From positions 1 through 39,326 of the forward strand of contig JAJEIQ010000013.1 in the NCBI GenBank assembly GCA_022827905.1: a stretch of DNA of 39,326 nt, read 5' to 3'. The stretch is from Pseudomonadales bacterium (GTDB lineage: Bacteria; Pseudomonadota; Gammaproteobacteria; Pseudomonadales; Azotimanducaceae). The translations under genes were made by a program, and so were the position numbers. Under the pieces are notes generated by a model. The model was not told the DNA's origin, made no database searches, and saw only the letters and a list, made by a program, of their open reading frames with translations. Every line of letters starts with the position of its first letter. Position 1 is the first letter of the stretch. This document shows positions 3,001 through 39,326 of this stretch, piece by piece.

Positions 3001-6000
3001 GCGGTAGGTGGAGCCGGGCGAGCCGTAGGCGCCGCCCTCCAGCACCAGCCGCTGGCCGTCGAGGCAGAACCTGTCGTCGGCGTTCCACCGGATGGGCTTG
3101 GCGGCGGCGTCCTGGTGGCGGGTGGCCCGGCAGCGGGTGATGGCGGAGCCGCCCTCCAGGGACCAGCCGAGGCCGGCGATGCCGTTGCCCGCCTGGGAGT
3201 TGTAGGCCAGCGCCAGCTCCGGGGCCACCCCGGCGGTGCCGGGGGTGGCGTAAATGGGGATGCGGTAGCTGGCGGCGCCGGACTCGGTGACGCGGAAGGC
3301 GCCGGGGACCGTGCCGGTTTGGTCGATGGCCTTGCGCTCGGCGGCGGTCACCAGCGAGGGCTGGGCGCTGTAGGGGGAGGGGGGCGTCTCCACGGGTGAC
3401 GCGGGGACGGCGGCCACGGTGACGGTGAGCGGGTCGGTCCAGGCCGAGCAGTTGGCCGCCGGTGCGCAGGCCCTGGCCCGGTAGGCGTGGTCGCCGGCGG
3501 GTTGGCCAGTGAACGCCTTCGACGTGGCGGTGACCGCGGCCTCGGTGGTCTGTTGGCCGAACGCCTCCTCCAGCCTGTAGGTGACGCTGGCGCTGCCCCA
3601 GGCCACGGCGTCCCAGGAGACGGTGTAGCCGCCCGCCGCCGTGGGCGCCGTGGCGCTCAGGCCGGAAGGCGCGGGCGGGGGGATGGGCACGGTGGCCGTC
3701 GCGGGGCCGGCCCAGGGGCCGCAGAGGTCCGCCGCCGTGCAGGCGCGCACTTGGTGTTCGTGGTCGCCGTCGGCCTTGGCGGTGAAGGACTTCTCGGTGG
3801 CGGCGCCCTTGTAGGCGTCCTCCCAGGCGCCGCTGCCCGGGCGCTCCTGCAGCTCGTAGCGGATTTGGGTGCCCGAAACGGAGTCCCAGTCCACCTTGTA
3901 GGCATTGGGGCCGGTGGGCAGGATCGCCAAGCCGGTTGGCGCGCTGGGCGTGGGGCAGTCTGGCGCGGTCACCGTGGCCGTGGCGCTCCAAGCGCCGCAG
4001 TTGTCGGTGCCCGCGCAGGCGCTGACCTGGAATGCGTATTGGCTGCCCGCCGTCAGGGGCAGCGTCGCTTGGGTGCCGGAGCTGTTGGCGGGCTGCCATT
4101 CCCCTGCGCCCTCGCGCTGCTGCAGTTTGTACTCGGTGGCGCCGGCGACCGCGTTCCAGGACGCGGTGGCCTCGCTGCCGTTGGCCGAGCAGCTTGCGGT
4201 GACGGTGAGGGTCGGCGCGGCGGGCGGCGCGGTTGGCGCGGCGCAGTCGGGCGCGGTCAGCGTCGCCGTGGCGCTCCAGTCGCCGCAGTTGGTGGGCGCG
4301 GCGCAGGCCTTGGCCTGGAACGAGTACGCATCGCCCGCCGTCAGGGACAGGGCCGCCTCGTTGTTCGTGCCGCTGTAGGCCGATGCCCAGGGGTCGGTGC
4401 CGGTGCGCTGCCGCAGCGCGTAGCTGGCCGCGCCGGACACCGCCGTCCAGGAGACCCTGGCCTTGCCGCCGTCGCAGGCCGGGGCGTTGGAGACCGTCGG
4501 CGCCGCCGGCGGCACCCGCACGGCCGCCTCGTCGCTCCAGGACCCGCAGTTGCCGTCGCCGTCGCAGGCCTTGACCTGGTAGCCATAGGTCGCGGCGCCC
4601 CGGTTGGAGAAGTCCTTGGACCGGTTGGCGAAGCCGGTCACGTCCGACCAGTCGCCGCCGTTGGTCCGTTCCTGAAGCCCGTAGCTCGCGGCGTTCAGGG
4701 ACGCCGTCCAGGACACCCGGTAGGTGCCGCCGGGGGCGGGGTTCGGCGCAATGCTTAAGGTCGGCGGCGCCAGCGATCGGGCCACCGTCACGGTCAGGGT
4801 CGCGGCGGGCTGCGACGGAACCAGCGGCGAGCAGGCCAGGCCGACCGGCCAACCCACGTTGATGCAGGTCTGCACCCGGTAGCGGTAGGCGCCGTCCGCC
4901 TTGCCGGAGAACGTCCGGCTGGTTGCGGTGAACGGGCCGGAGGTGGACCAAGTGGAGCCGCCGTCCGTGCTTTCCTGCAGGCGGTAGCCGTCGGCGGCCA
5001 CCAGTGACGGCGTCCAATGGACCGTGTAGCTGCCGTTGGATGAGGGGTTGGGGTCGGCCCAGACCGCGCCGGTGACCGCCACCTCAAGCTCGGGGGACCA
5101 GCTCCCGCAGTCATCGGCGTCGCCGCCGTCGCAGGCGCGCACCCGGTAGCGGTGCTTGACGAGGATGGTGATGGCCCGGCCGGCGACGTCCGCTTCGGTG
5201 GCCGCGTCGTTGTGGATGCGGGACCAAACGCCGGTTGGCTTGCGTTCCTGAAGCTCGTAGCGCGATGCGCCGGCGACGGCGGACCAGGACAGCTGGTGGC
5301 TGCCATCCAAGGAGGGGTTGGGATCAGCGGCAAGCGAAGCCGGGGCGGGGAGGGCGTCCTTCGGGGTGGTTCCCTCGGCGGCGGGCGACCAGTCGCCTTT
5401 GCCCGCGCCGTTCCCGGCCCGCACCGCCACCGCATAGGTGGTTTTTGCAGTGAGGCCGGTGATCCCGGCGCTGCGGCCGGTTCCCGTGTGCGCATGGGCC
5501 GTCCAGTCCGTGGCGCCTTTCTTCCGGTGGCGCAGGTCGTAGCCGGTGATGGCCGAACCGTTGTCGTCCGGCGCCGTCCAGGTCACGCTCAGCTTCGTGC
5601 TTTCCGATGCGGTCACCGTGGGCTTGGCCGGGGCGTCGGGAACGTCCACCACGTCCACGGTGGCGGTGTCGTTGCCGCTGCCGCCCAAGCCGGTGCAGGT
5701 CACCGTGACGCTGAACTCGCCCACGGCGGTGGGCGTGAAGGACTTGGTGCCGGATGTCTTCGTCGAGCCGATGCTGGGCGATCCGGAGCAGGCCGTGGCG
5801 TTCTCCGACGTCCAGGTCAGGGTGGCGCTGTCGCCCTTCTCGATTTCACTGTGGTCAAAGGAGGCGGAGACCGTTGGTTCGGGCGCGGGCACGCCCTTGA
5901 CGAAGACCGTGGCCAGCGTGTCCCCCGCGTAGGTGCCGCCGTTCTTGAGCTCCAGGGTCCGTCCTGCCTTGTTGATCCAGGGCGCCACCTTCGAGCCGCT

Positions 6001-7074
6001 GGCGCTGCAGGCGAACTTCCCCTCGGATGACTTGAGGTACACGCAGGGCTTGGTGGCGTTCGTCGTTGACCAGGTCACCGTCGTCGAGCAGCGGGTCTTG
6101 CCGTGGGGGATGGCGCATGGCGACGGCGAGGCCGAGATGGTGCCGGTGGGCGCGGGCTTCGGCACGGTCACCGTCACGCTGTTGCTCACCGGCGCGCAGG
6201 TGATGGAGCCGAGCAGGTTGAAGCAGACCTGCAGGCTGTAGGCGTAGCTGCCCGGCTTTTGGTTGGTGAAGCGCTTGCTGGTGCCGGAGATCGTGAAGGA
6301 TGCGGTCGCCTCGCCGTTGTTGAAGCTCTCCAGCAGCTTGTAGCCGCTGCTCAGGGCGCTGGCGGTCCAGCTTATGGTGTAGTTGCCGCCCGGCGCCGTG
6401 GTCCGGTTGGCTGAGAGGGTCGATAGCGCAATGGTGACCCGCACGTTGCCGGTTGCGGACCAGCCGCTGCAGTTCGTCTGCCCCGCGCAGGCCCGCACCC
6501 GGTACGAGTAGGCGCCGGTGCCCTTGCCGGAGAAGGCCTTGGAGTTGGCCGTGCCGGAGTAGGCGTCGCTCCAGGCGCCGGACCCGGCCTTTTCCTCAAG
6601 CTCGAAGCGGGTGGCCTTGGCGGGCTTGGTCCAGGAGACGCTGTAGGCGCCCGTCGTGGAGCTGGCCGGGACGGTCAGCGTCGGGGCGGCGGGAGCGGGA
6701 TCGGCCGTGCCGCTCGACACGGTCACCGTCAGCGCGTCGAAGCCGGAGGGCAGGTTGCAGATGGTCGTGCCGACGGGGAAGCCGATGTGCTGGCAGTAGG
6801 TCAGCGTGTAGGCGTGGGTGCCGGCCGCCTTGCCGGAGAACGCCTTGGAGCGGGCCGTGCCCTGGTAGGCGACCTTGCCGCCCTCAAGCAGTTGGTACTG
6901 CGTGGCGCCGGTGACCGCGCTCCATGAGACGGTGTAGGCGCCGTTGGTGGAGGGGTTGGGGGAGGCGGAGATTGCCGCGTGGGTGGCGGAGCCCGCGATC
7001 AGGCCGACCGCCAGCGCCAAGAGCCGCCAAGTCCGGATCCAATTGTGGGTGGGGGATTGCTTCAAGAGGTTCAT
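1..7074 (-). CDS. Giant secreted FN3 / SpvB / VCBS / YD-repeat protein (3' end outside window)
   Basis: The frame is open from ATG at 7074-7072 to the window edge, 2,358 codons without a stop. GGAAG seven bases before the ATG is a fair RBS. Residues 1-33 form a signal peptide ending ATHA. Residues about 34-1230 are about thirteen beta-sandwich modules: eleven FN3-like (PNPS..G.YTVSW, Y.LQE, SK.FSGK, Y.YRV.AC) and two Ig-like (modules 4 and 5). Many carry a Cys pair near the module end, consistent with disulfides outside the cytoplasm. At about residue 1250 an SpvB-type N-terminal domain begins (SYRIPIYATPGTAGVAPELA, then YNSQAGNGIAGLGWSL). Seven calcium-loop-like repeats follow at about 1575-1935 (DVNGDGMMD, DYNGDGRTD, DLNGDGLVD, DFNGDGLAD, DFNGDGLTD, DHNGDGHPD, DADGDGALD). 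The last visible residues include YDAFGNRV, a YD/RHS repeat. Known relatives are SpvB/TcdB-like shells and RHS polymorphic toxins or adhesins. The cargo or C-terminal domain lies outside, so toxin versus surface protein cannot be decided. Confidence 0.88.
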   Translation of the reverse strand, partial: MNLLKQSPTHNWIRTWRLLALAVGLIAGSATHAAISASPNPSTNGAYTVSWSAVTGATQYQLLEGGKVAYQGTARSKAFSGKAAGTHAYTLTYCQHIGFPVGTTICNLPSGFDALTVTVSSGTADPAPAAPTLTVPASSTTGAYSVSWTKPAKATRFELEEKAGSGAWSDAYSGTANSKAFSGKGTGAYSYRVRACAGQTNCSGWSATGNVRVTIALSTLSANRTTAPGGNYTISWTASALSSGYKLLESFNNGEATASFTISGTSKRFTNQKPGSYAYSLQVCFNLLGSITCAPVSNSVTVTVPKPAPTGTISASPSPCAIPHGKTRCSTTVTWSTTNATKPCVYLKSSEGKFACSASGSKVAPWINKAGRTLELKNGGTYAGDTLATVFVKGVPAPEPTVSASFDHSEIEKGDSATLTWTSENATACSGSPSIGSTKTSGTKSFTPTAVGEFSVTVTCTGLGGSGNDTATVDVVDVPDAPAKPTVTASESTKLSVTWTAPDDNGSAITGYDLRHRKKGATDWTAHAHTGTGRSAGITGLTAKTTYAVAVRAGNGAGKGDWSPAAEGTTPKDALPAPASLAADPNPSLDGSHQLSWSAVAGASRYELQERKPTGVWSRIHNDAATEADVAGRAITILVKHRYRVRACDGGDADDCGSWSPELEVAVTGAVWADPNPSSNGSYTVHWTPSLVAADGYRLQESTDGGSTWSTSGPFTATSRTFSGKADGAYRYRVQTCINVGWPVGLACSPLVPSQPAATLTVTVARSLAPPTLSIAPNPAPGGTYRVSWTASLNAASYGLQERTNGGDWSDVTGFANRSKDFSNRGAATYGYQVKACDGDGNCGSWSDEAAVRVPPAAPTVSNAPACDGGKARVSWTAVSGAASYALRQRTGTDPWASAYSGTNNEAALSLTAGDAYSFQAKACAAPTNCGDWSATATLTAPDCAAPTAPPAAPTLTVTASCSANGSEATASWNAVAGATEYKLQQREGAGEWQPANSSGTQATLPLTAGSQYAFQVSACAGTDNCGAWSATATVTAPDCPTPSAPTGLAILPTGPNAYKVDWDSVSGTQIRYELQERPGSGAWEDAYKGAATEKSFTAKADGDHEHQVRACTAADLCGPWAGPATATVPIPPPAPSGLSATAPTAAGGYTVSWDAVAWGSASVTYRLEEAFGQQTTEAAVTATSKAFTGQPAGDHAYRARACAPAANCSAWTDPLTVTVAAVPASPVETPPSPYSAQPSLVTAAERKAIDQTGTVPGAFRVTESGAASYRIPIYATPGTAGVAPELALAYNSQAGNGIAGLGWSLEGGSAITRCRATRHQDAAAKPIRWNADDRFCLDGQRLVLEGGAYGSPGSTYRTEIDSFATVKAVGGTAGHPDRFEVRRKDGSTAHYGNVPGGAFKDARRTNGRGQTLTWALKRFEDSVGNPVWHLYAGGADSHRLDEVRYAYGAKRKIGEHHAAIKLIYADRADDQSGYVAGHEFASRKRLAKVQTLNHHGGKLQTVRELRLAYGGMGGNRTSRLASVTECAGDGAAAACKPATTFTWPANAAGFKRTASGSANLTPRRDRGVLAHHPADVNGDGMMDLVWVEWDADGANDTDHHLKYALSDGSMLKPAAFSNGASSIEHKENVGRSGANVLARPIDYNGDGRTDVALWRARDPVWRIHLAVPTVGGGWRLDAATVPTPVTDRLAEFTDLNGDGLVDAVYGRGATIRARHLERRDPNKEADPIPPNQAYAFGEEATLHTVPGGTFGALAASVNTSVQVGGYDFNGDGLADFIASTYFEGQQSGPRLAPSRTVSGPYVQGPNGWTLYADFRGDRLHAADFNGDGLTDLVRESRIGGDLYPYLEVNTGAGFASHYSSLALTAKDTRILPPADHNGDGHPDLLWHDRKREAIRVLHFDPNAGTLGSALAHQAVAVRNAGRKHAHLFADADGDGALDYLRLSDLKDKGKLETFPSSNAGRFPRQASAIVNGLGAVTRITHESLARTTHYERLDIQRTVPAAPAQFCHSFPGGSGCVPYGNPIDRELETVDEHGNDLPQAQVLANAKALLEKRKNAFYAEINAGWTLPAGAQTLGKAGPVLEFRAPMPVVTEVSGTAPAAGSAPGGVAADAASKVEHFYADAKVQAMGRGPLGFGQLKTRDAQTGVQTTTRYRHDFPFTGMPVSTTVRTSSGRLLSESATTWRLTGHQPAWEATAKASGTAALGALKPHAAKAVERSYDLNTDGQDGKPILLTTVTTTTERDAHGNATTVTAVTEGGGRTFTTKTVNEYGSSDADKRLGRLSKATVTHLRRKSSETDSQALKAVRTSAFTYHGQAGCTASKAAHAGLLCKEVVEPDHERLKVTTTHSYDAFGNRVRS

Positions 7075-7173
7075 GCGTTTGCTTCCAACGGGTTTGTGCG
7101 GGCCGCTTGGGCTCTCCGTGGGGAATCCCGGAGCGGCGTTTGGCAGCCATTGTTGGAGTCGGCGCGGGGCGGA

Positions 7174-7208
7174 GCCATCGAAAACCCCCCATGAGTTTTG
7201 ACGGGATT
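7174..7208 (-). repeat. Leader element, left-facing copy
   Basis: On the minus strand this copy ends with the 16-mer GGGGGTTTTCGATGGC, 99 bases before the giant gene's ATG. It is identical over those 16 bases to the right-facing copy at 7366-7400 and matches 13 of the preceding 19 bases. GAAAA and TCCC upstream can pair with GGGG and TTTTC, with a bulge, so a hairpin is possible. Confidence 0.7.
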
Positions 7209-7301
7209 TTTTTCGGTCGGAGTGGGGGTGGGCGGTTCCGGCTGTTCTGGCGCTTGGTGCAAAAGCCGCTGTTGTGCGCAATCCGCCGGGTTTGCGCAGC
7301 C

Positions 7302-7328
7302 ATCCCAACCCCCGGTCCGGGTTGGGAT
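7302..7328. repeat. Perfect palindrome in the divergent region
   Basis: ATCCCAACCC (7302-7311) and GGGTTGGGAT (7319-7328) are exact inverse complements separated by seven bases. There is no T-run after either arm, so an operator or structural element is more likely than an intrinsic terminator. Confidence 0.6.
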
Positions 7329-7365
7329 TCCCCTAATGCACAGTCCCGTGGCTTGCGCAAGGGAA

Positions 7366-7400
7366 AACCCCGACACAACTTGCAGGGGGTTTTCGATGGC
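7366..7400 (+). repeat. Leader element, right-facing copy
   Basis: This copy ends in GGGGGTTTTCGATGGC, 32 bases before the ATG of the small lipoprotein. GAAAACCCC (7363-7371) pairs perfectly with GGGGTTTTC (7386-7394) around a 14-base loop, giving a 9-bp stem. The same element precedes the paralogous giant gene on the other strand. It could be a 5' leader hairpin or a protein-binding site. Confidence 0.7.
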
Positions 7401-7432
7401 GCTGGCGGCTGGGTTGCCGACAATCGCCACCC

Positions 7433-7873
7433 ATGAACGGAATCCTCCACACAAAGGCAAAGGGCCGGTCCGCAACGGCGCGCCGGTGGCGGCGGGTGGT
7501 TTGGGCCAGCCTGATGCCACTCGGCCTGCTTGGATGCGTGACGCCGACCATGCCGACCATGCCGGCCAGCATCACCGCATTGGCCGCGCAGCCGAACCCA
7601 TCCACCGACGGCGCCTACACATTGCGCTGGCCCCATGTGGTCGGCGCCACCCGGTACCGGCTGTTTGAGAACGACGAACTGGCCTTTGAAGGCTTCCGCC
7701 TCTCCCATGCCGTCGCCGGCAAGCCGGACGGCTCCTACACCTACTCGCTCACCTACTGCGTTGAGGCTTTTGGCATCGAGGTATGCCAATTGCGTCCGGT
7801 GCGGGCGGAGGTGACCGTGGTTGTCGCCACGCGGCAATCAAAGGACACGCCGCCCAACGAAGCCGCGCCTTGA
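7433..7873 (+). CDS. Small lipoprotein with one FN3-like module, paralog of the giant's first module
   Basis: The protein has 146 residues. An Arg-rich N-terminus precedes a hydrophobic stretch and the lipobox LGLLGC with Cys35, so it is probably a lipoprotein of the outer membrane or periplasm. After a short linker comes a single module (PNPSTDGAYTLRW, GATRYRLFENDE, GSYTYSLTYC, then a second Cys). This matches module 1 of the divergent giant protein (PNPSTNGAYTVSW, GATQYQLLEGG, HAYTLTYC) including the Cys pair, so the two genes are clearly related. No good RBS is visible before ATG 7433. The shared leader element suggests co-regulation. It may anchor, protect against or cap the giant protein, but that is inference; no function is assigned. 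Confidence 0.75.
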   Translation: MNGILHTKAKGRSATARRWRRVVWASLMPLGLLGCVTPTMPTMPASITALAAQPNPSTDGAYTLRWPHVVGATRYRLFENDELAFEGFRLSHAVAGKPDGSYTYSLTYCVEAFGIEVCQLRPVRAEVTVVVATRQSKDTPPNEAAP

Positions 7874-7963
7874 GCGGCCCCTCGCCTGCCGGCGGGGCGG
7901 AACCGGTGATCTGCGGGCAGGGACGCCTTTGCTAGCGTGCCTCTCAACGTGCCTCAACAAACA

Positions 7964-7979
7964 CTGTATGATCGTACAG
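7964..7979. promoter_or_regulatory. LexA (SOS) box candidate
   Basis: CTGTATGATCGTACAG fits the gammaproteobacterial LexA consensus CTGT-N8-ACAG exactly. A -10-like TATGAT (7967-7972) lies inside it, so a bound repressor would block the promoter. It sits 31 bases before the start of the mini-ORF at 8011 and is the only promoter-like signal seen for the downstream pair. Confidence 0.6.
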
Positions 7980-8010
7980 GTTCGCATTGAACGGCCAGGG
8001 AGGGGCCACC

Positions 8011-8076
8011 ATGCAGCAACCACCGACCAGCTCTCTCGATTGGACCCGCAAGTTCGCCGCCGAGGTGGCGCCTTGA
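8011..8076 (+). CDS. 21-codon mini-ORF translationally coupled to the DUF2857-like gene
   Basis: ATG 8011 follows one of the strongest RBS sequences in the window (AGGGAGGGG at 7997-8005). The 21-residue product (MQQPPTSSLDWTRKFAAEVA then P) ends at TGA 8074-8076, which overlaps the TTG start of the next gene as TTGA. It could be a leader peptide that couples translation, or the remnant 3' or 5' part of a larger gene. No family is recognisable at this length. Confidence 0.5.
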   Translation: MQQPPTSSLDWTRKFAAEVAP

Positions 8077-8660
8077 GCCGAAACCAACTGGCGGAACTGA
8101 CCGTTGCTGTGCTGCGCTATGCCGTGGGGTGCATCGCCCACGGCGACGAAGCCGCCCTGCTGGAGCTGGGGCTCGAATCGGAGCAGCTTCGCGAAATTGC
8201 CGCCTTGACGCTTGAGGACATTGAAAACCTGGACGCGGTGCGGGTGTCCTGCGTGGAAGTGCGGATCCAACCGGAGGGGTTCCAGATCTTGATGAGCCGT
8301 TTGGCCAGGGCGCGGCGGAACAAGGGGCTGGAGCTGGCGCTCATCCAAGCCGATGCGCCGGAGCTGATGATGCGGACGCTCTTCGGCATGAAGCAGCGCG
8401 ACTACAGCCGCACGAGACGCCTGCTTGGCGTTGAAACGGGCGTGGGGAGGCCGCCTTCGCTCGATGAGGAAACCGAGCTTGCGCTGTGGCGCGCCGTGGC
8501 CGATTCCCTAAGCGGCAACCCCCGTCGGCCGCTGGAGCCGGACCTTTACCTGCAAACGCATCGGGAGCTTGGCGTTCCGATGCGCGCACTGTGGGGTTGC
8601 ACCCAGCGCTGGGCGCAGGAACGGAATGCCGAAGCCAAACCGGGCCACGGGCATAGCTGA
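8073..8660 (+). CDS. DUF2857-like protein of integrative-element type
   Basis: The protein has 195 residues if it starts at TTG 8073, which follows GAGG at 8062 and overlaps the mini-ORF stop. The frame also has an ATG at 7968, but that lies inside the LexA-like box. Features resembling DUF2857 proteins as I remember them are an N-terminal helical half (NQLAELTVAVLRYA, LGLESEQLREIAALT), a mid part with LARARRNKGLELALIQ and MMRTLFGMKQRDYSRTRRLL, then GRPPSLDEETELALWR. DUF2857 genes occur in the replication/partition and regulatory modules of integrative and conjugative elements (SPI-7/PAGI type). No other such genes are nearby, so this looks like an isolated survivor or a domesticated regulator. 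The exact role is unknown. Confidence 0.6.
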   Translation: MSRNQLAELTVAVLRYAVGCIAHGDEAALLELGLESEQLREIAALTLEDIENLDAVRVSCVEVRIQPEGFQILMSRLARARRNKGLELALIQADAPELMMRTLFGMKQRDYSRTRRLLGVETGVGRPPSLDEETELALWRAVADSLSGNPRRPLEPDLYLQTHRELGVPMRALWGCTQRWAQERNAEAKPGHGHS

Positions 8661-8782
8661 GGGTTGAGAATCGGCTCCCGACGCGGCACTCGCGACGCTT
8701 CGCCTCAAGGCAACAACCGTTCAATCCTCGAAATCCTCCAACGCCGACCCTTAACAGGGGAACGAGGAAAGAACTGCGCGGA

Positions 8783-8800
8783 GTTTGGCGCCAGCCAAAC
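8783..8800 (+). terminator. Hairpin, possible terminator after the DUF2857-like gene
   Basis: GTTTGGC and GCCAAAC form a 7-bp stem with the four-base loop GCCA. Only a weak TTC follows, so termination is plausible but not certain. Confidence 0.35.
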
Positions 8801-8806
8801 TTCAAT

Positions 8807-8822
8807 GCGGCCGTCAGGCCGC
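8807..8822. repeat. Hairpin GCGGCC-gtca-GGCCGC
   Basis: A 6-bp GC stem with a four-base loop lies just after the 8783-8800 hairpin. There is no T-run. It may be part of a transcription-end structure. Confidence 0.35.
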
Positions 8823-8836
8823 GCCGTTGCGTCCCA

Positions 8837-8853
8837 TGTTCCAAGCTGGAACA
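8837..8853. promoter_or_regulatory. Palindromic operator-like site before the LLM oxidoreductase
   Basis: TGTTCCAAGCTGGAACA has 7-bp arms around a three-base spacer and lies 50 bases upstream of the oxidoreductase start. The size and symmetry suit a dimeric repressor site. No regulator gene is adjacent. Confidence 0.35.
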
Positions 8854-8902
8854 ATTCCCCGCGGCGGCGATGGCTGCACGACTAACTGAACGGGAGACTG
8901 AA

Positions 8903-9910
8903 GTGAAAGTAGATGGTGGAATCGGTTGGGACTTGGACAAGGTGGGCGAGCAGGCCCGGGCGCTCGAGGAAATGGGCTATTCGGGGCTGATGACCGCGGA
9001 AACCGCCCACGATCCGTTTTTCCCCCTAGTGGTTGCCGCACAGCATACAGAGCGCGTGGAACTGATGACCTCAATCGCCGTCGCCTTTGGCCGTTCACCG
9101 ATGACCTTGGCCAATATCGGCCACGATCTGAACGCCGCCTCCAAGGGGCGTTTCGTGCTGGGCATCGGCTCGCAGATCCGCGCGCACATCACCAAGCGCT
9201 TCAGCATGCCGTGGTCGAATCCGGCGGCGCGCATGCGGGAGTTCATCCTGGCCATGCGGGCCATTTGGGCAAACTGGCACGAAGGCGAGCCATTGCAATT
9301 TGCGGGGCGGTTTTACCAGCACACCCTGATGACGCCCTTTTTCACCCCCACCAACAATGAATACGGTCCGCCGAAAGTTTTTTTGGCCGCAGTTGGTCCG
9401 CGGATGACGGAGGTGGCCGGCGAGGTCGCCGATGGCGTGATCATCCATGCCTTCACCACCGAACGCTACCTTCGGGAAACCACCTTGCCAGCCTTGGAGC
9501 GGGGTTTTGCGAAGGCGGGCAAGCAGCGCAGCGACTTTGAGATCAGCTATCCGGTGTTTGTCGTGACCGGCCAAAACGAGGAGGAGCTTGACCGGGCCCG
9601 GACGGCCACCCGCCAGCAGATCGCTTTCTACGGTTCCACGCCAGCCTACAAGCCGGTGCTCGACAGCATCGGCGTCGGCGATTTGCAGCCGGAGCTGAAC
9701 CGCATGTCCAAGCAGGGGCGCTGGGTGGAAATGGGCTCACTCATCAACGATCAGATGCTGGACGCCTTCGCAGTGAGCGGCGAGCCCGCCGCCATTCCAG
9801 CGCAGATCAAGGCCCGCTATGGCGATTTGGTTGATCGGACCGCGGCAGCCTACGGTGGAATCCCGGCCGAAGAGCAGCGGCGGCTGGTCGCCGAATTGAC
9901 GGCGGCCTGA
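8903..9910 (+). CDS. LLM-class (F420-type) oxidoreductase, TIGR03617-like
   Basis: A 335-residue luciferase-like TIM-barrel protein. I start it at GTG 8903 (KVDGGIGWDLDKV) because GGGAG stands six bases before; an upstream ATG at 8870 adds eleven unconserved residues. Features of the family are GYSGLMTAETAHDPFFPL, FGRSPMTLANIGHDLNAAS, GRFVLGIGSQIRAHI, RFSMPWSNPAARMREF, TLMTPFF and GPRMTEVAGEVADG. This matches the TIGR03617 group of F420-dependent LLM oxidoreductases as I remember it. Whether the host makes F420 is not visible, and an FMN-using member is possible. It appears to be a single-gene unit. The substrate is unknown. Confidence 0.85.
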   Translation: MKVDGGIGWDLDKVGEQARALEEMGYSGLMTAETAHDPFFPLVVAAQHTERVELMTSIAVAFGRSPMTLANIGHDLNAASKGRFVLGIGSQIRAHITKRFSMPWSNPAARMREFILAMRAIWANWHEGEPLQFAGRFYQHTLMTPFFTPTNNEYGPPKVFLAAVGPRMTEVAGEVADGVIIHAFTTERYLRETTLPALERGFAKAGKQRSDFEISYPVFVVTGQNEEELDRARTATRQQIAFYGSTPAYKPVLDSIGVGDLQPELNRMSKQGRWVEMGSLINDQMLDAFAVSGEPAAIPAQIKARYGDLVDRTAAAYGGIPAEEQRRLVAELTAA

Positions 9911-9967
9911 GGGGTTGGCAGGGGAGCCGTTCGGGCACCCCGGTTCGCTGGGGCACGGGCTTCGGGC

Positions 9968-9995
9968 TTCACTTTTTTGGTTTTTTATGTAGAAT
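9968..9995 (+). promoter_or_regulatory. Promoter candidate for the lytic transglycosylase gene
   Basis: TTCACT (9968-9973) and TAGAAT (9990-9995) are separated by 16 bases in a T-rich stretch that stands out from the GC-rich surroundings. The expected start of transcription is about 20 bases before the coding region. Confidence 0.55.
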
Positions 9996-10020
9996 CCGGC
10001 TCCTTTTCGACGGGAATCGA

Positions 10021-10662
10021 GTGTTCATGTCCATTAATCCGGGGCGTCGCCGCCGCGTTCTTTCTCGCTCCACCAGGCGCCTAGGCGCCGGTGTTGGCCG
10101 GAGCCTGCGTTGGTTGGCCGCCTTGGTGGGCGGTTTCGCCTTGACGGGCGCGCTCGCTGCCCTTGATTTGGGGATGGGGCACTACAAAACCGTTCCCGTC
10201 ACCAAGCCCGCGCACTTCAGTCAAACTTGGGAGCAGCGCAGCACTGCCTTCGGCTGGCGGGTGTATGAGGCCTTCGGCGTTCGCTTGGACCGCGCTCACG
10301 AGTTCGCCGGTTGGATACTTGAGGCCGCCGACCGTCAACGGCTGGCACCGGAGTTGATCGCCAGCCTTGTGTTTACGGAAAGTTCCTTCCGCAAGCAGGT
10401 CCGCTCCCCGGCGGGCGCCATCGGACCGGCGCAGATCAAGCCCCGCTATTGGGCGGATTTCTGCGGTGTGCGCGACCTGCGCGATCCCGAGCAGAACATC
10501 TATTGTGGTGCCCAGGTGCTCGCCCACCTTGAGGGGCGCTGTGGCGGCCTGGAGTGCGCCTTGGCCAGCTACAACGTTGGCTTCAACGCATGGCAGCGCC
10601 AAGCTGGACTGCGCTACGTTTCCCGAATCGAGCGCCACCGCTCCAAGTTCGACCGAATCTAA
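10021..10662 (+). CDS. Lytic transglycosylase (SLT family)
   Basis: The protein has 213 residues from GTG 10021, or 211 from ATG 10027; neither has a clear RBS. A basic N-terminus and one hydrophobic segment (WLAALVGGFALTGALAALDL) suggest a signal anchor. The SLT domain follows: catalytic Glu at about residue 120 in VFTESSFRKQ, then SPAGAIGPAQIKPRYW, YCGAQVLAHL and ALASYNVGFNAWQ. Such enzymes cleave the MurNAc-GlcNAc bond of peptidoglycan with 1,6-anhydro formation in the periplasm. The gene is preceded by its own promoter candidate and converges on glnS with seven bases between the stops. It is shorter than Slt70 and closer in size to MltE-type or standalone SLT proteins. Confidence 0.88.
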   Translation: MFMSINPGRRRRVLSRSTRRLGAGVGRSLRWLAALVGGFALTGALAALDLGMGHYKTVPVTKPAHFSQTWEQRSTAFGWRVYEAFGVRLDRAHEFAGWILEAADRQRLAPELIASLVFTESSFRKQVRSPAGAIGPAQIKPRYWADFCGVRDLRDPEQNIYCGAQVLAHLEGRCGGLECALASYNVGFNAWQRQAGLRYVSRIERHRSKFDRI

Positions 10663-10680
10663 GGCGCGTTCAGCCGCCTT
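10661..10680. terminator. Inverted repeat at the transglycosylase/glnS junction
   Basis: AAGGCG (10661-10666) and CGCCTT (10675-10680) can form a 6-bp stem around an eight-base loop. The transglycosylase TAA runs into the left arm and the glnS stop (10670-10672) lies in the loop. It could act on both strands. Confidence 0.4.
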
Positions 10681-12322
10681 TGGCAGGCGTCGGGGGGCGC
10701 CAAGAGTCCCTCAGGGAGGCGGTCCGGTTGAAAGTGCGGGGCACAACGGGGTCCCGGTGGAAGTAGCCGACGCGCTCGAATTGAAAGTGGGGTTGCTGAC
10801 TCGTCGCCGCGGCGGGCTCGAGGAATCCGGAGGCCGTCACCAGGGAAGCTGGATTGAGGTCATCCATCAACGAGTCCCCCTTCGGATTGCGCACCCTGAA
10901 CAGGCGGTCGTAGAGCCGCATTTGCACCGGCTCGGCCGCATGGGCGGCCACCCAGTGGATCACGCCGGCTGGCTTCACCCCGCTGGTGTCGCTGCCGCTC
11001 CTGGAATCCGGCAGGTAGGTGCACAGCAATTCCGCAATTTCGCCATCGTCGCCAGTGACCACCTCGTCGCAACGGATGATGTAGGCATAGCGCAGGCGCA
11101 CGTGGCCTCCCGGCGAGAGCCGCTTCCATTTCGGCGGGGGTGAATGTGCAAAGTCGTCGCGGTCAATGTAGAGCTCAGGGCCGAAGGGCAGGGGGCGAGC
11201 ACCCAATTCAGGTTGGCGCTGATGCCAAGGTGCCTCCAACGTCTCCTCGGATTTAGGGTAGTTGGTCAGCCGCACCTTCAGTGGCTTGACCACCCCGAGG
11301 GCTCGGGGCGCCGAGTTCTCAAGATCGCTGCGAACGCAGAACTCCAGCAGTTCAATCTCCAGTTGATTGTCCTGCTTGGTGACGCCGGCGCGCCGGCAGA
11401 AATCGCGGATGGCGTTGGGCGTGACGCCGCGGCGGCGCAGGCCGGCCAAGGTGGGTAGCCGCGGGTCGTCCCAGCCCTCGACCACGCCTTCAGCCACCAG
11501 CCGCTGCAGGAGCCGCTTGCTCATCACGGTGTGTTCCAGTCCCAACCGGGAAAACTCGATTTGCCGCGGTCGGGCGTTCAGGCTCAAGTTGTCCAACACC
11601 CAGTCGTAGAGGGGGCGGTGGTCCTCGAACTCCAGGGTGCATAGGGAATGGGTGATGTTCTCCAAGGCGTCGCAGATGCAATGCGTGAAGTCGTAAGTAG
11701 GGTAGATCACCCAAGCCTCGCCGACGTTATGGTGGGCGGCGTGGCGAATGCGGTACAGCACCGGGTCGCGCATGTTCAGGTTGGGCGAGGCCATGTCGAT
11801 CCGGGCGCGCAGCACGTGGGCGCCGTCGGGGAACTCGCCCGCCCGCATTCGGGCGAACAGGTCAAGGCTCTCATCAATGGGGCGATTGCGGTACGGGCTG
11901 ACGGTGCCGGGCTCGGTCAGCGTGCCGCGAGTGGCGCGAATCTCGGATTGGGAGAGGCTGCAGACGAATGCCTTGCCCTTGCGAATCAACTCCAGGGCGC
12001 TGTTGTAGAGCACCTCGAAGTAGTCTGAGGCGAAGGTCACCCGGCCGGCGACGTCGAATCCCAGCCAAGCCACGTCCCGTTCAATCGCCTCGACGTACTC
12101 CTTGCTCTCCGCCAAGGGATTGGTGTCGTCGAAACGCAGATAGGCGTGGCCGCCGTACTCTTCGGCGATGCCGAAATTCACGCAGATGCTCTTGGCGTGG
12201 CCGATGTGCAGATAGCCGTTCGGCTCCGGCGGAAATCGGGTAATGACATCCTTGGAGCCGTCGGGCTTGGCAATATCCCGGTCGATCTGCTGTCGAATGA
12301 AGTCGGTCGGGGGCTCAACCAT
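10670..12322 (-). CDS. glnS: Glutaminyl-tRNA synthetase
   Basis: The protein has 550 residues, the usual length for bacterial GlnRS. It charges tRNA-Gln directly with glutamine in the cytoplasm. Class I signatures are RFPPEPNGYLHIGHAKS with HIGH at residues 39-42 and VMSKR (the KMSKS equivalent) at about residue 266. The catalytic core also shows YLRFDDTNP and YPTYDFTHCICD. The C-terminal part is the beta-barrel anticodon-binding region (ELYIDRDDFA, VRLRYAYIIRCDEV, GVIHWV, ERVGYFHRD). The presence of GlnRS supports a gammaproteobacterial-type translation system. It converges with the transglycosylase gene and its start region faces the transglutaminase-like gene; TAGAAT/TATTCT at about 12354 could serve as a shared -10. 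Confidence 0.97.
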   Translation of the reverse strand: MVEPPTDFIRQQIDRDIAKPDGSKDVITRFPPEPNGYLHIGHAKSICVNFGIAEEYGGHAYLRFDDTNPLAESKEYVEAIERDVAWLGFDVAGRVTFASDYFEVLYNSALELIRKGKAFVCSLSQSEIRATRGTLTEPGTVSPYRNRPIDESLDLFARMRAGEFPDGAHVLRARIDMASPNLNMRDPVLYRIRHAAHHNVGEAWVIYPTYDFTHCICDALENITHSLCTLEFEDHRPLYDWVLDNLSLNARPRQIEFSRLGLEHTVMSKRLLQRLVAEGVVEGWDDPRLPTLAGLRRRGVTPNAIRDFCRRAGVTKQDNQLEIELLEFCVRSDLENSAPRALGVVKPLKVRLTNYPKSEETLEAPWHQRQPELGARPLPFGPELYIDRDDFAHSPPPKWKRLSPGGHVRLRYAYIIRCDEVVTGDDGEIAELLCTYLPDSRSGSDTSGVKPAGVIHWVAAHAAEPVQMRLYDRLFRVRNPKGDSLMDDLNPASLVTASGFLEPAAATSQQPHFQFERVGYFHRDPVVPRTFNRTASLRDSWRPPTPAKGG

Positions 12323-35810: not shown

Positions 35811-36866
35811 ATGGATATTGAAGGAAAGACAATCTGGCAGCAGGCGGCCGGGGACGGGAAGCGCGACTATGTGCAAGTGTGTGTGAACCTTGGCGTCATC
35901 TTAAATGGCCCGGGGAATGACGGTTGTTGGCCAGGGTGCGTTGAGTCGCTGAGAGCAAGTGGATGGAGTAAGAAGAAAATCAATAATCTTCGTTTGTTTT
36001 GCGAAGAAATGGCACCAGGGGATATTGTCGTCCTCCGCTTGGGCACCAAATCCGTTTATGCGGTGGGCAAGATCGATGGAGACTACGATTGGCGTGAGGA
36101 GTTCGGCGACGTAGATGGCTGGGACCTTCAACATGTGCGTCGAGTGAAATGGCTTTGGCAGGGAGTTTCGAAGCCTAAGACGTTTGAGGCACATACTTTG
36201 AAGATGGGGGATACAACGCAACGGCTGACATCCCAGAGGGTGAAGGACTGGCTGGCAGGGTTAGAGCCGAACATTGGTGGCGAAGGCGCTCTCCCTGATC
36301 TTCCACAACCGGGTTATGAGACGGACCTCGATGAGATATCCGAATATCTTTTCGACGAGGGCGTCGCAAGCGATTCGATTTCGAGCCTGCGGAGTCAAGT
36401 CGACGAATTCGTTCGGATTGCGAAATGGTACGACCGCTACCAAACGCCACCATCCGAGCATGAGACGGTGAGCTATCTTGTCGTTCCGCTTCTTCGAGCA
36501 CTTGGGTGGACCCCTCAGAAGATGGCAATCGAGTGGCGTAAGATTGACGTTGCTCTGTTTTCCGAACTTCCGCGCGAGGAGCGCAGTCTGTCGGTCGTTG
36601 TGGAGGCCAAGAAGAAGGGGGCATCATGCTTATCGGCAGTTCAACAAGCTAGCGACTATGCGATGCTCAGCCAAAACTGCACGCGAGTCATCGTGACTGA
36701 TGGCTTGCGGTATGGAGTGTTTACACGGGATGCGAGAGGGGAGGATTTTCGACTTCATTCATATTTGAATCTAGCGAGACTTCGGGAGAAATACCCCATA
36801 TACGATTGCAAAGGATCCCGAGAAGCACTTTTGGCCATGGCGCCTGAATGGAGGTTTCAGGAGTAG
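35811..36866 (+). CDS. Putative modification-dependent restriction protein: EVE/PUA-like sensor plus PD-(D/E)XK nuclease
   Basis: The protein has 351 residues from ATG 35811, with no clear RBS. Residues about 10-150 resemble the EVE/PUA-like domain used to read modified bases (GDIVVLRLGTKSVYAVGKI, GDYDW, HVRRVKWLWQGV). Residues about 195-310 resemble the HsdR N-terminal-type nuclease: ETVSYLVVPLLRALGW with Glu at 218, IDVALF with Asp246, and VVVEAKKKG with Glu265 and Lys267, then AVQQASDYAML and VIVTDGLRYGVF. Together this suggests a Type IV-like restriction enzyme or related defence effector. No helicase or methyltransferase is adjacent. The base composition is visibly AT-richer than the upstream genes, a sign of transfer. 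Domain calls are from motif memory, not a search. Confidence 0.7.
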   Translation: MDIEGKTIWQQAAGDGKRDYVQVCVNLGVILNGPGNDGCWPGCVESLRASGWSKKKINNLRLFCEEMAPGDIVVLRLGTKSVYAVGKIDGDYDWREEFGDVDGWDLQHVRRVKWLWQGVSKPKTFEAHTLKMGDTTQRLTSQRVKDWLAGLEPNIGGEGALPDLPQPGYETDLDEISEYLFDEGVASDSISSLRSQVDEFVRIAKWYDRYQTPPSEHETVSYLVVPLLRALGWTPQKMAIEWRKIDVALFSELPREERSLSVVVEAKKKGASCLSAVQQASDYAMLSQNCTRVIVTDGLRYGVFTRDARGEDFRLHSYLNLARLREKYPIYDCKGSREALLAMAPEWRFQE

Positions 36867-36879
36867 GACAATTCCGGGG

Positions 36880-37008
36880 AGGCATCAACGCTCATGGCCA
36901 AATCAGTTGCTTAAGGCCCTTGCATTCCTCCGCAAACTTGAGCGTGCTGATCCTACCGGTGCGCTCTTCAGATCAGTCCATGGAAAACTGGGGATCATCA
37001 ATCCCTAG
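36880..37008 (+). pseudogene. Possible gene remnant between the two nuclease genes
   Basis: A short frame ending at TAG 37006-37008 reads WPNQLLKALAFLRKLERADP and then TGALFRSVHGKLGIINP. It looks like natural protein sequence rather than noise, but has no proper start or RBS. It might be the end of a decayed gene or a TTG-started peptide (36907). Family unknown. Confidence 0.25.
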
Positions 37009-37048
37009 GTCTAGACTTCCTTGATCGTCTACGCCGCTGGAGACTCAG

Positions 37049-38266
37049 ATGGATAGGGATAGCGCGAATCAGATTAGCGAACTTATTCGGCGCCACTCGG
37101 ATAAGTTGACGGGATTCCGTCTTGAAGAGAAGCTCGATACGCCACTCTCCGGCTTCCATAAGTGGGCTGATGAGCGGGAGTGCGTCGGCGCTTACCGGAT
37201 TGGGAACACCAGCGGATCCCCTACCGCACTCTACGTTCTACTCATCGAATGGAGTCCCCAAAAGAACCCCGAAAAGTTCTATCTGATCGTGTACCGCTCC
37301 GCCCGCAGCAAGGGGCCAGTGTACGAGATCAACGAAGTCAGGAATGGGCGTCTGAGGTGGAAGCATGTGCCCCGTAAGAGAGACGGAGAAGTGAAAAACC
37401 GCGAACGAAAAAGGAGATTTGACCTTTTGGCCTCGCGGGTGGGTCTGCTTAAGGAATCTCATGTGGAAATGGCCTTACCTCGGAACGTCGCCAATCTTGG
37501 GGATTTCCTCCAGTCCGTATTCGATTTGGCTCGGATTCGTGATCAAGCGCACGACCTTGATTCAGAAAACCGGATTGACACCTACCCAGACGCAGAAGCC
37601 GTATTCAAAGCCACCAACGCCGGCGGTGGCTATACGGCAAAACGCCAGATGACGGGATTCCAACTCCAGTACAACGATCGGCCCGCCGGGGGATGGGGAG
37701 AGAAAAGAGGCCACTGGTACATCCTGAATCCCTTTGCTTCTTCCGTGCATGACCGACATGAGGCGATCCTGAGTCAGTATGGATTCGAGCAACAGGAAAG
37801 GCATCGTTGGTGGAGGCTCCGCGGGGAGGCGGAGGCAACCAGTTTCTGTCGCGCCCTCGCCGAGTTGACGGGCGAGCAAATCCATATACCCCTTCCGGGG
37901 GAAGAGCAAATTGAAGGCTATGCGGAGGGCCTTGTCGAAACAGTTGTCGTCAACCGCTATGAGCGCGACACCCGAAACCGTCGTGCAGCAATCGAGAAGC
38001 ATGGAACCCGATGCTTCGGATGCGACTTAGAGATGCAGGAAAAATATGGAAAGGTCGCTGAGGGCTACATTCATATACACCACACTGAGCCACTGTCACA
38101 GGTAGGTGGCCCCCGAACCCCAAACTTGGACGAATTGATCCCGCTCTGTCCCAACTGCCACGCAGTGGTCCATCTCCAAACCCCTCCGCTGACTGTAGAT
38201 CAACTCCGAAAGCGCATTGGCTTGGTCGCTCGTAAAGCGCCTCGACCAATAGAGCCCAATAGGTAA
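37049..38266 (+). CDS. HNH endonuclease with uncharacterised N-terminal domains
   Basis: The protein has 405 residues from ATG 37049 with GGAG six bases before. The C-terminal HNH domain (about 305-380) has Cys322 and Cys325 (RCFGCDLEM), His342/344/345 (YIHIHHTEPLS), Asn359 (PNLDELIPL), Cys367, Cys370, His371 and His375 (CPNCHAVVHL). Four Cys suggest a zinc-ribbon HNH as in McrA-like and SRA-HNH restriction enzymes. The N-terminal 290 residues are unfamiliar: one segment (ALYVLLIEWSPQKNPEKFYL) looks like a beta-rich fold, and another (GHWYILNPFASSVHDRHEAI) could be a recognition domain. It lies 182 bases after the EVE-nuclease gene on the same strand and shares its AT-richer composition, so both may form one defence unit. 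Confidence 0.75.
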   Translation: MDRDSANQISELIRRHSDKLTGFRLEEKLDTPLSGFHKWADERECVGAYRIGNTSGSPTALYVLLIEWSPQKNPEKFYLIVYRSARSKGPVYEINEVRNGRLRWKHVPRKRDGEVKNRERKRRFDLLASRVGLLKESHVEMALPRNVANLGDFLQSVFDLARIRDQAHDLDSENRIDTYPDAEAVFKATNAGGGYTAKRQMTGFQLQYNDRPAGGWGEKRGHWYILNPFASSVHDRHEAILSQYGFEQQERHRWWRLRGEAEATSFCRALAELTGEQIHIPLPGEEQIEGYAEGLVETVVVNRYERDTRNRRAAIEKHGTRCFGCDLEMQEKYGKVAEGYIHIHHTEPLSQVGGPRTPNLDELIPLCPNCHAVVHLQTPPLTVDQLRKRIGLVARKAPRPIEPNR

Positions 38267-38455: not shown

Positions 38456-38788
38456 TTACCCAACTGCCTTTCCGGCAACCCCGTGGTTTTCGTGCAGTAG
38501 GGCGGAAGGGCGCTCATGTCCAACCGTCATCCGCATGGACAGTCCGACTCCGGTACCCATGTTGACCAGCTTGTCGATGGTGAACTTGCTGATCTGGCCG
38601 TTGACCAGTTCGCTCACCCGTAACCGTGAGATGCCAAACCGTTTGGCAGCCTCCTTCTGCGTGATGCGTTCGCGAGCGATGTACGCCTCCAGCGCATCCA
38701 TGAGTTGGGAGCGCAGCTTCAAGTTGGCTGCCTCCCCGGGACCGTCTGCTATAGCGTCCCAAACACTCCGGTAGGCTTGTGTCTGCAT
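38456..38788 (-). CDS. XRE-family antitoxin-like regulator without a visible toxin
   Basis: The protein has 110 residues with AGAGGAG before ATG 38788-38786. The central helix-turn-helix is LEAYIARERITQKEAAKRFG followed by ISRLRVSELVNGQISKFTID, as in small HigA/COG5606-type antitoxins. These normally pair with a RelE/HigB-like toxin upstream. Here the upstream space holds only a probable broken vapC start, and downstream is the HNH gene in opposite direction. It is therefore an orphan antitoxin or a stand-alone regulator. Confidence 0.8.
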   Translation of the reverse strand: MQTQAYRSVWDAIADGPGEAANLKLRSQLMDALEAYIARERITQKEAAKRFGISRLRVSELVNGQISKFTIDKLVNMGTGVGLSMRMTVGHERPSALLHENHGVAGKAVG

Positions 38789-38846
38789 GGTTTGGCTTCT
38801 CCTCTGCGATTGCGCGTGAGGCGTTTGTATCGCGGCAAATCTTCAC
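38789..38846 (-). pseudogene. Probable truncated vapC start
   Basis: GTG 38846 overlaps the stop of the VapB-like gene as GTGA, the usual vapBC junction. The frame begins VKICRDTNASRAIAEEK, close to PIN-domain VapC starts of the form MKI..DTN...RA, with the first active-site Asp present. The PIN pattern then ends and the RBS and ATG of the XRE gene follow. It appears that vapC was cut off near codon 15 and the XRE gene joined there. Confidence 0.45.
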
Positions 38847-39094
38847 TCTTCGCCGGCCCAGCCGGAAGCAGCGGCTTCCCCGATCTCTTCTATCGTTAGG
38901 CGCTTCGTGTTGGACTGCTCCAGCATCCCAAAGATCGTCGATACTGGTTTGCCCGGCTTTGGTCGCAGTTCGATGCGGCGGTCGTTGAGCAGCTCGACGC
39001 TGAGCTTGTCACCAGGCCGCACCCCAAGGTGTCGGAGCACGTCTCTCTGAAGCACGACCTGGCCCTCGGCAGTAACGGTAAGAGCGATGGTCAT
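38843..39094 (-). CDS. VapB/AbrB-type antitoxin
   Basis: The protein has 83 residues. The SpoVT-AbrB swapped-hairpin domain is at the N-terminus (ALTVTAEGQVVLQRDVLRHL, GVRPGDKLSVELLNDRRIEL). The C-terminal tail (RLTIEEIGEAAASGWAGEE) is the typical VapC-binding end of such antitoxins. The matching toxin seems lost (only a short DTN-containing remnant follows). It would normally repress its own promoter, expected in 39095-39245. Confidence 0.82.
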   Translation of the reverse strand: MTIALTVTAEGQVVLQRDVLRHLGVRPGDKLSVELLNDRRIELRPKPGKPVSTIFGMLEQSNTKRLTIEEIGEAAASGWAGEE

Positions 39095-39260: not shown

Positions 39261-39326
39261 GTGCGAAAACTTGAGATTGCCGACGCCGACGTGATGCGCA
39301 TCGCCATCCAACAGGAGATTCAACGC
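39261..39326 (+). CDS. 5' end of a probable helix-turn-helix/transposase gene (cut by window edge)
   Basis: The frame from GTG 39261 (or ATG 39246) stays open to the edge and reads RKLEIADADVMRIAIQQEIQ. GGGAG at 39248-39252 is eight bases before the GTG. The sequence recalls N-termini of IS630-type transposases or HTH proteins, but only 22 codons are visible, so the family is uncertain. Confidence 0.45.
   Translation, partial: MRKLEIADADVMRIAIQQEIQR

Follow-up and report, generated by a model that had tools for sequence, protein, structure and literature searches.

Parts of Bell et al. 2020 (PMC7641849) predict that fusions of an EVE domain to a nuclease, either EVE-PD(D/E)XK or EVE-HNH, are type IV enzymes. 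In VcaM4I, an EVE-HNH enzyme described in the relevant parts of PMC7897488, the EVE domain flips 5mC or 5hmC into a pocket (mainly P24, W82, and Y130), and activity, including that of variants, was assayed as restriction of T4gt. The window analysed here, one whole contig of 39,326 bases, carries a gene (ORF1) whose product shares the overall architecture and predicted role of the putative EVE-PD(D/E)XK type IV enzymes in the consulted parts of PMC7641849, followed by a gene (ORF2) for an HNH protein. ORF1 differs from VcaM4I (PDB 6yex) in that its nuclease is of the PD-(D/E)XK rather than the HNH type, and the two readers are 8% identical. The features discussed below are as follows.

35811..36866, + strand: ORF1, 351 aa, intact frame; EVE/YTH-like reader and HsdR-N-type PD-(D/E)XK nuclease, by fold
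35811..36290, + strand: ORF1 putative reader domain (aa 1-160), PUA superfamily fold, from a fold match
36381..36863, + strand: ORF1 putative nuclease domain (aa 191-351), with E218, D246, E265-x-K267, and Q279-xxx-Y283
36867..37048, no strand: gap between ORF1 and ORF2, 182 bp, GC 0.53
37049..38266, + strand: ORF2, 405 aa, intact frame; three-module HNH nuclease
37049..37564, + strand: ORF2 N-terminal domain (aa 1-172; alignments A3 and A4)
37565..37900, + strand: ORF2 middle module (about aa 175-280, ~105 aa)
37901..38263, + strand: ORF2 HNH domain, with a four-cysteine zinc ribbon (C322/C325/C367/C370) and H344-H345
38456-39094, - strand: two antitoxin-type genes (HTH_37, MazE) downstream of ORF2, from Pfam

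A sequence-only reading had placed both genes at these positions on the + strand and had described them as AT-richer than the core genes, and this is what was found: GC is 0.53 for ORF1 and 0.55 for ORF2 versus 0.64-0.66 in the four genes upstream, and GC3 is 0.57 and 0.60 versus 0.78-0.86. The composition of both genes is thus foreign. The antitoxin neighbours that it had reported are likewise supported by Pfam (HTH_37, E 5.4e-18; MazE, E 3.8e-6). A frame starting at 38846 seems, by eye, to open with the beginning of a PIN toxin and to continue into the HTH gene, and no Pfam match supports it. The candidate mobile-element gene is an ORF at 39261-39326 with only 22 codons before the contig ends at 39326, and it tentatively resembles an IS630-type transposase; the final 101 bases of the contig occur once in the assembly. 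A simple scan of the 182 bp gap found no promoter-like or terminator-like matches.

Both domains of ORF1 are assigned mainly by predicted fold. In structure searches with its AlphaFold model (pLDDT 91.0), residues 1-162 matched EVE/YTH structures, placing the reader in the PUA superfamily (EVE/YTH/SRA), and residues 211-351 matched the HsdR fragment 3h1t. Sequence profiles gave fainter signals: ORF1 fell below threshold against Pfam HSDR_N (E 0.0041; 17.4 bits, cut-off 25.1), 12 of 24 family rows matched that profile at E<=0.01, and a PDB profile search with ORF1 gave nothing convincing (best E 1.1, to unrelated proteins). The protein ends with its nuclease at residue 351 and has no Pfam helicase match, and so the SF2 helicase motor of a type I R subunit was not found behind the nuclease.

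An alignment of 24 rows, comprising the window ORF1 and 23 homologue rows at 47-60% identity, indicates an intact catalytic set. E218, D246, E265, K267, Q279, and Y283 are invariant in all 24 rows. Together with the structure matches, this bears out the earlier description of ORF1 as a modified-base-reader-like domain joined to an HsdR-type nuclease core with D246 as an active-site residue. In the reader, W9, Y92, W104, and W114 are unchanged in all rows that have a residue at the position, W116 is unchanged in 23 of 24 rows, and some of these aromatics may line a pocket. The reader changes little across phyla, and its near-constancy would therefore suggest one shared, constant target.

The profile libraries searched match ORF1 weakly or in part. 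The nearest single-gene candidates are those of PADLOC PDC-S02, to which the reader appears related: some PDC-S02 profile is matched at E<=0.01 by 23 of the 24 rows, with the match in the window ORF1 confined to aa 54-152 (31.3 bits at best) and no PDC-S02 profile covering its full length. The nucleases differ, however. A full-length PDC-S02 match, L004 (299 bits over 335 residues), has an Mrr_cat nuclease (E 1.1e-23), whereas that of ORF1 is HsdR-type; no ORF1-family row (0/24) matches Mrr_cat at E<=0.01, the Mrr-type nuclease being a criterion drawn from the L004 example rather than from a published definition. Section 9 of PMC7641849 names no nuclease sequence family for its fusions, whereas the ORF1 nuclease is of the HsdR-N type and belongs, with a very conserved reader, to a mobile single-gene family. 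In the literature searched, no single-gene family with an HsdR-type nuclease and a comparable spread came up. The EVE-PD(D/E)XK class of ORF1 has thus already been predicted, and the HsdR-type variant with this spread is new.

ORF1 homologues were compared at 27 other loci from seven phyla (L022-L045, L064 from Cupriavidus metallidurans, L065, and L079), among which L037, L038, L042, L044, and L065 are partial or distant members. No neighbouring gene family was found at more than three of the compared loci, and therefore ORF1 has no recurrent partner; the lack of an obligate adjacent gene such as a methyltransferase was judged by this recurrence rather than by a methyltransferase profile, and at 11 of the 27 loci one flank is shorter than 3 kb. 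ORF1 differs from the type I HsdR N-terminal nuclease (3h1t) in lacking both such a partner and a helicase match.

The genomic settings are varied. Seventeen neighbours were chosen by eye, 16 of these out of 157 listed, and scanned without a control; in a PADLOC scan of ten neighbours, two had no match and one, an AAA protein at L041, had a weak mad8 match. At L036 (Leeuwenhoekiella, 5858-10857), a CBASS cyclase and a TIR-STING effector lie upstream of the homologue and ThsB-like TIR and caspase genes downstream. The homologue there is on the same strand as the flanking defence genes, and a second ThsB-like TIR gene was seen by eye. Two AbiH genes follow the homologue at L032, a PADLOC PLD_Helicase (1786 bits) is near that at L031, and the L026 homologue (3385-4446) is within a phage tail sheath operon. 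It lies on the opposite strand to these contractile-phage tail genes, as might an accessory gene carried by the phage. Serine recombinases adjoin the homologues at L032 and L045, and other neighbours include a piece of an IS110 transposase (L002), a GIY-YIG protein with a sub-threshold match (L022), and a gene with no PADLOC match (L028). In two Bacillaceae, the homologue is followed by a conserved protein of ~280 aa (L031, 9116-9952; L032, 9077-9928); Pfam and PADLOC scans of the L031 copy gave no match. Many homologues adjoin genes that look ordinary by eye.

The tree of 23 ORF1 rows mixes phyla. An Alcanivorax and a Pelobacter row form a starred pair, as do an Acidobacteriota row and a Prolixibacteraceae (Bacteroidota) row, and several rows are MAG contigs, in which binning errors can mimic transfer. 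With all groups taken together, clustering still exceeds that of shuffled labels. ORF1 is a widespread single-gene family found in varied genomic places.

With moderate confidence, we favour the reading that ORF1 is a type IV, modification-dependent restriction enzyme that works alone as a single protein and independently of nucleotides, and that ORF2 is a McrA-like HNH nuclease that lies next to it, is independent of it, and has a two-module chimeric recognition part. The N-terminal EVE/YTH-like domain would flip a modified DNA base into an aromatic pocket, and the C-terminal HsdR-type PD-(D/E)XK domain would then cut the modified DNA without ATP. No methyltransferase would be needed, because host DNA would lack the mark. 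The gene would move alone by horizontal transfer into variable sites, defence islands and prophages among them. From the fold and the conserved residues, ORF1 is probably a nuclease that detects and cleaves phage DNA carrying chemical modifications, and the type IV-like character suggested for it earlier is well supported at this level; base flipping, dependence on modified DNA, cleavage, and phage defence are properties that we infer. If so, ORF1 represents a compact one-gene family of ~350 aa, with no nucleotide cofactor expected, that reads some DNA modification; it would extend phage-defence catalogues and could become a tool for mapping modified bases. A wider proposal is tentative, and we hold it with somewhat less than even confidence: ORF1 would found a trans-phylum, single-gene, ATP-free type IV family that combines a YTH-like reader with a type I HsdR nuclease and may read one phage DNA modification that matters everywhere, and ORF2 would be a recent sensor swap in which a small protein from the same genus was spliced in frame between a sensor domain and an HNH domain.

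The sequence-only reading had joined the two genes into a two-nuclease anti-phage system, as might be expected from genes that share a strand, lie 182 bp apart, and are both AT-rich. The comparison of loci argues against this. At the 27 other ORF1 loci, phmmer with ORF2 as query (E<=0.1) found no ORF2-like gene, and an HNH profile made from 12 rows (E<=10) found no HNH gene (0/27); the downstream sequence available reaches 1.5 kb or more at 21 of these loci, and 16 have 3 kb or more on each flank. Conversely, ORF1 was found at none of the 43 loci, many of them short, that were retrieved for the whole or parts of ORF2. Because ORF1 and ORF2 do not co-occur, the joint system fails the refutation test that its own proposer had named, namely rare co-occurrence; it is largely refuted and now appears very improbable. 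ORF1 and ORF2 are instead two independent restriction-like genes that have only an island in common.

Other alternatives concern ORF1 itself. YTH-like domains can read RNA, and therefore its substrate could be RNA: ORF1 might be an RNA-directed or suicide nuclease that reads modified RNA, or DNA under stress, and causes abortive infection or toxin-like arrest. The best Foldseek matches of the reader are indeed YTH domains, several of which have structures with m6A or RNA containing m6A, and antitoxin-type genes adjoin both the window pair and the L027 homologue (Phd/YefM), with a Gp49-type (toxin-type) gene at L043. We nevertheless regard this as unlikely, given that, among solved structures, the nuclease fold is related to DNA-acting restriction enzymes (HsdR, DrdV, and BpuSI) and that no neighbour family recurs at more than three loci. 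It is distinctly unlikely that the window copy is simply impaired, despite a leucine at position 27, where the 22 other rows with a residue have W (19), Y (2), or F (1). This position, placed after the first helix, may correspond to a cage tryptophan, and the pocket may therefore differ or be impaired. The neighbourhood also resembles a scarred island, with two antitoxin-type genes and no evident toxin next door, and the window ORF1 has an end branch of 0.73 versus a median of 0.29, although this branch carries no long-branch flag and is exceeded by at least two others. In contrast, the 351-codon frame is intact and keeps every catalytic residue, along with the remaining near-invariant reader positions that were checked.

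ORF2 differs in construction from ORF1, and bacteria often remodel nucleases of its kind. Its C-terminal part matches Pfam HNH (E 4.6e-6), and H344, H345, and C322/C325/C367/C370 are invariant in all 12 rows of the HNH alignment, in agreement with the zinc-ribbon HNH domain and the catalytic H345 proposed earlier and with a McrA-like HNH nuclease. The 290 N-terminal residues, previously treated as one uncharacterised block, are in fact two separate modules (~1-172 and ~175-280). The N-terminal domain has no convincing Pfam match and no PDB sequence match, and the model of aa 1-170 has a pLDDT of 76-94 in blocks of ten; the domain is common to two-domain NTD-HNH proteins at L012, L047, and L052 and stands alone in a Paenibacillus plasmid protein (L066). 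At L066 (1719-4519), an AbrB gene and an HNH gene lie nearby.

The middle module is missing from the two-domain NTD-HNH relatives and is found as a lone frame of ~100 aa in two further species from its genus (identities over ~100 aa).

L088, 7854-8171, - strand: lone homologue of the ORF2 middle module, 59% identity
L089, 6237-6533, + strand: lone homologue of the ORF2 middle module, 49% identity, interrupted by a stop

A small free-standing protein thus seems, from these alignments, to have become a domain of ORF2, which is assigned as a chimera of an N-terminal domain, a ~105-aa module, and a McrA-like HNH domain. Of the sensor domains of McrA-like enzymes (NEco, SRA, EVE, and wH were considered), those of EcoKMcrA (6ghc), TagI (6ghs), and ScoMcrA (5zmm) were matched by neither front module in the searches made. 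By sequence, ORF2 joins the McrA-like HNH group as a new member whose front modules are unusual. It would illustrate how HNH restriction enzymes acquire new recognition parts, in a case recent enough for tracing inside one genus. The lone middle-module frame adjoins a frame that resembles an alpha/beta hydrolase by eye.
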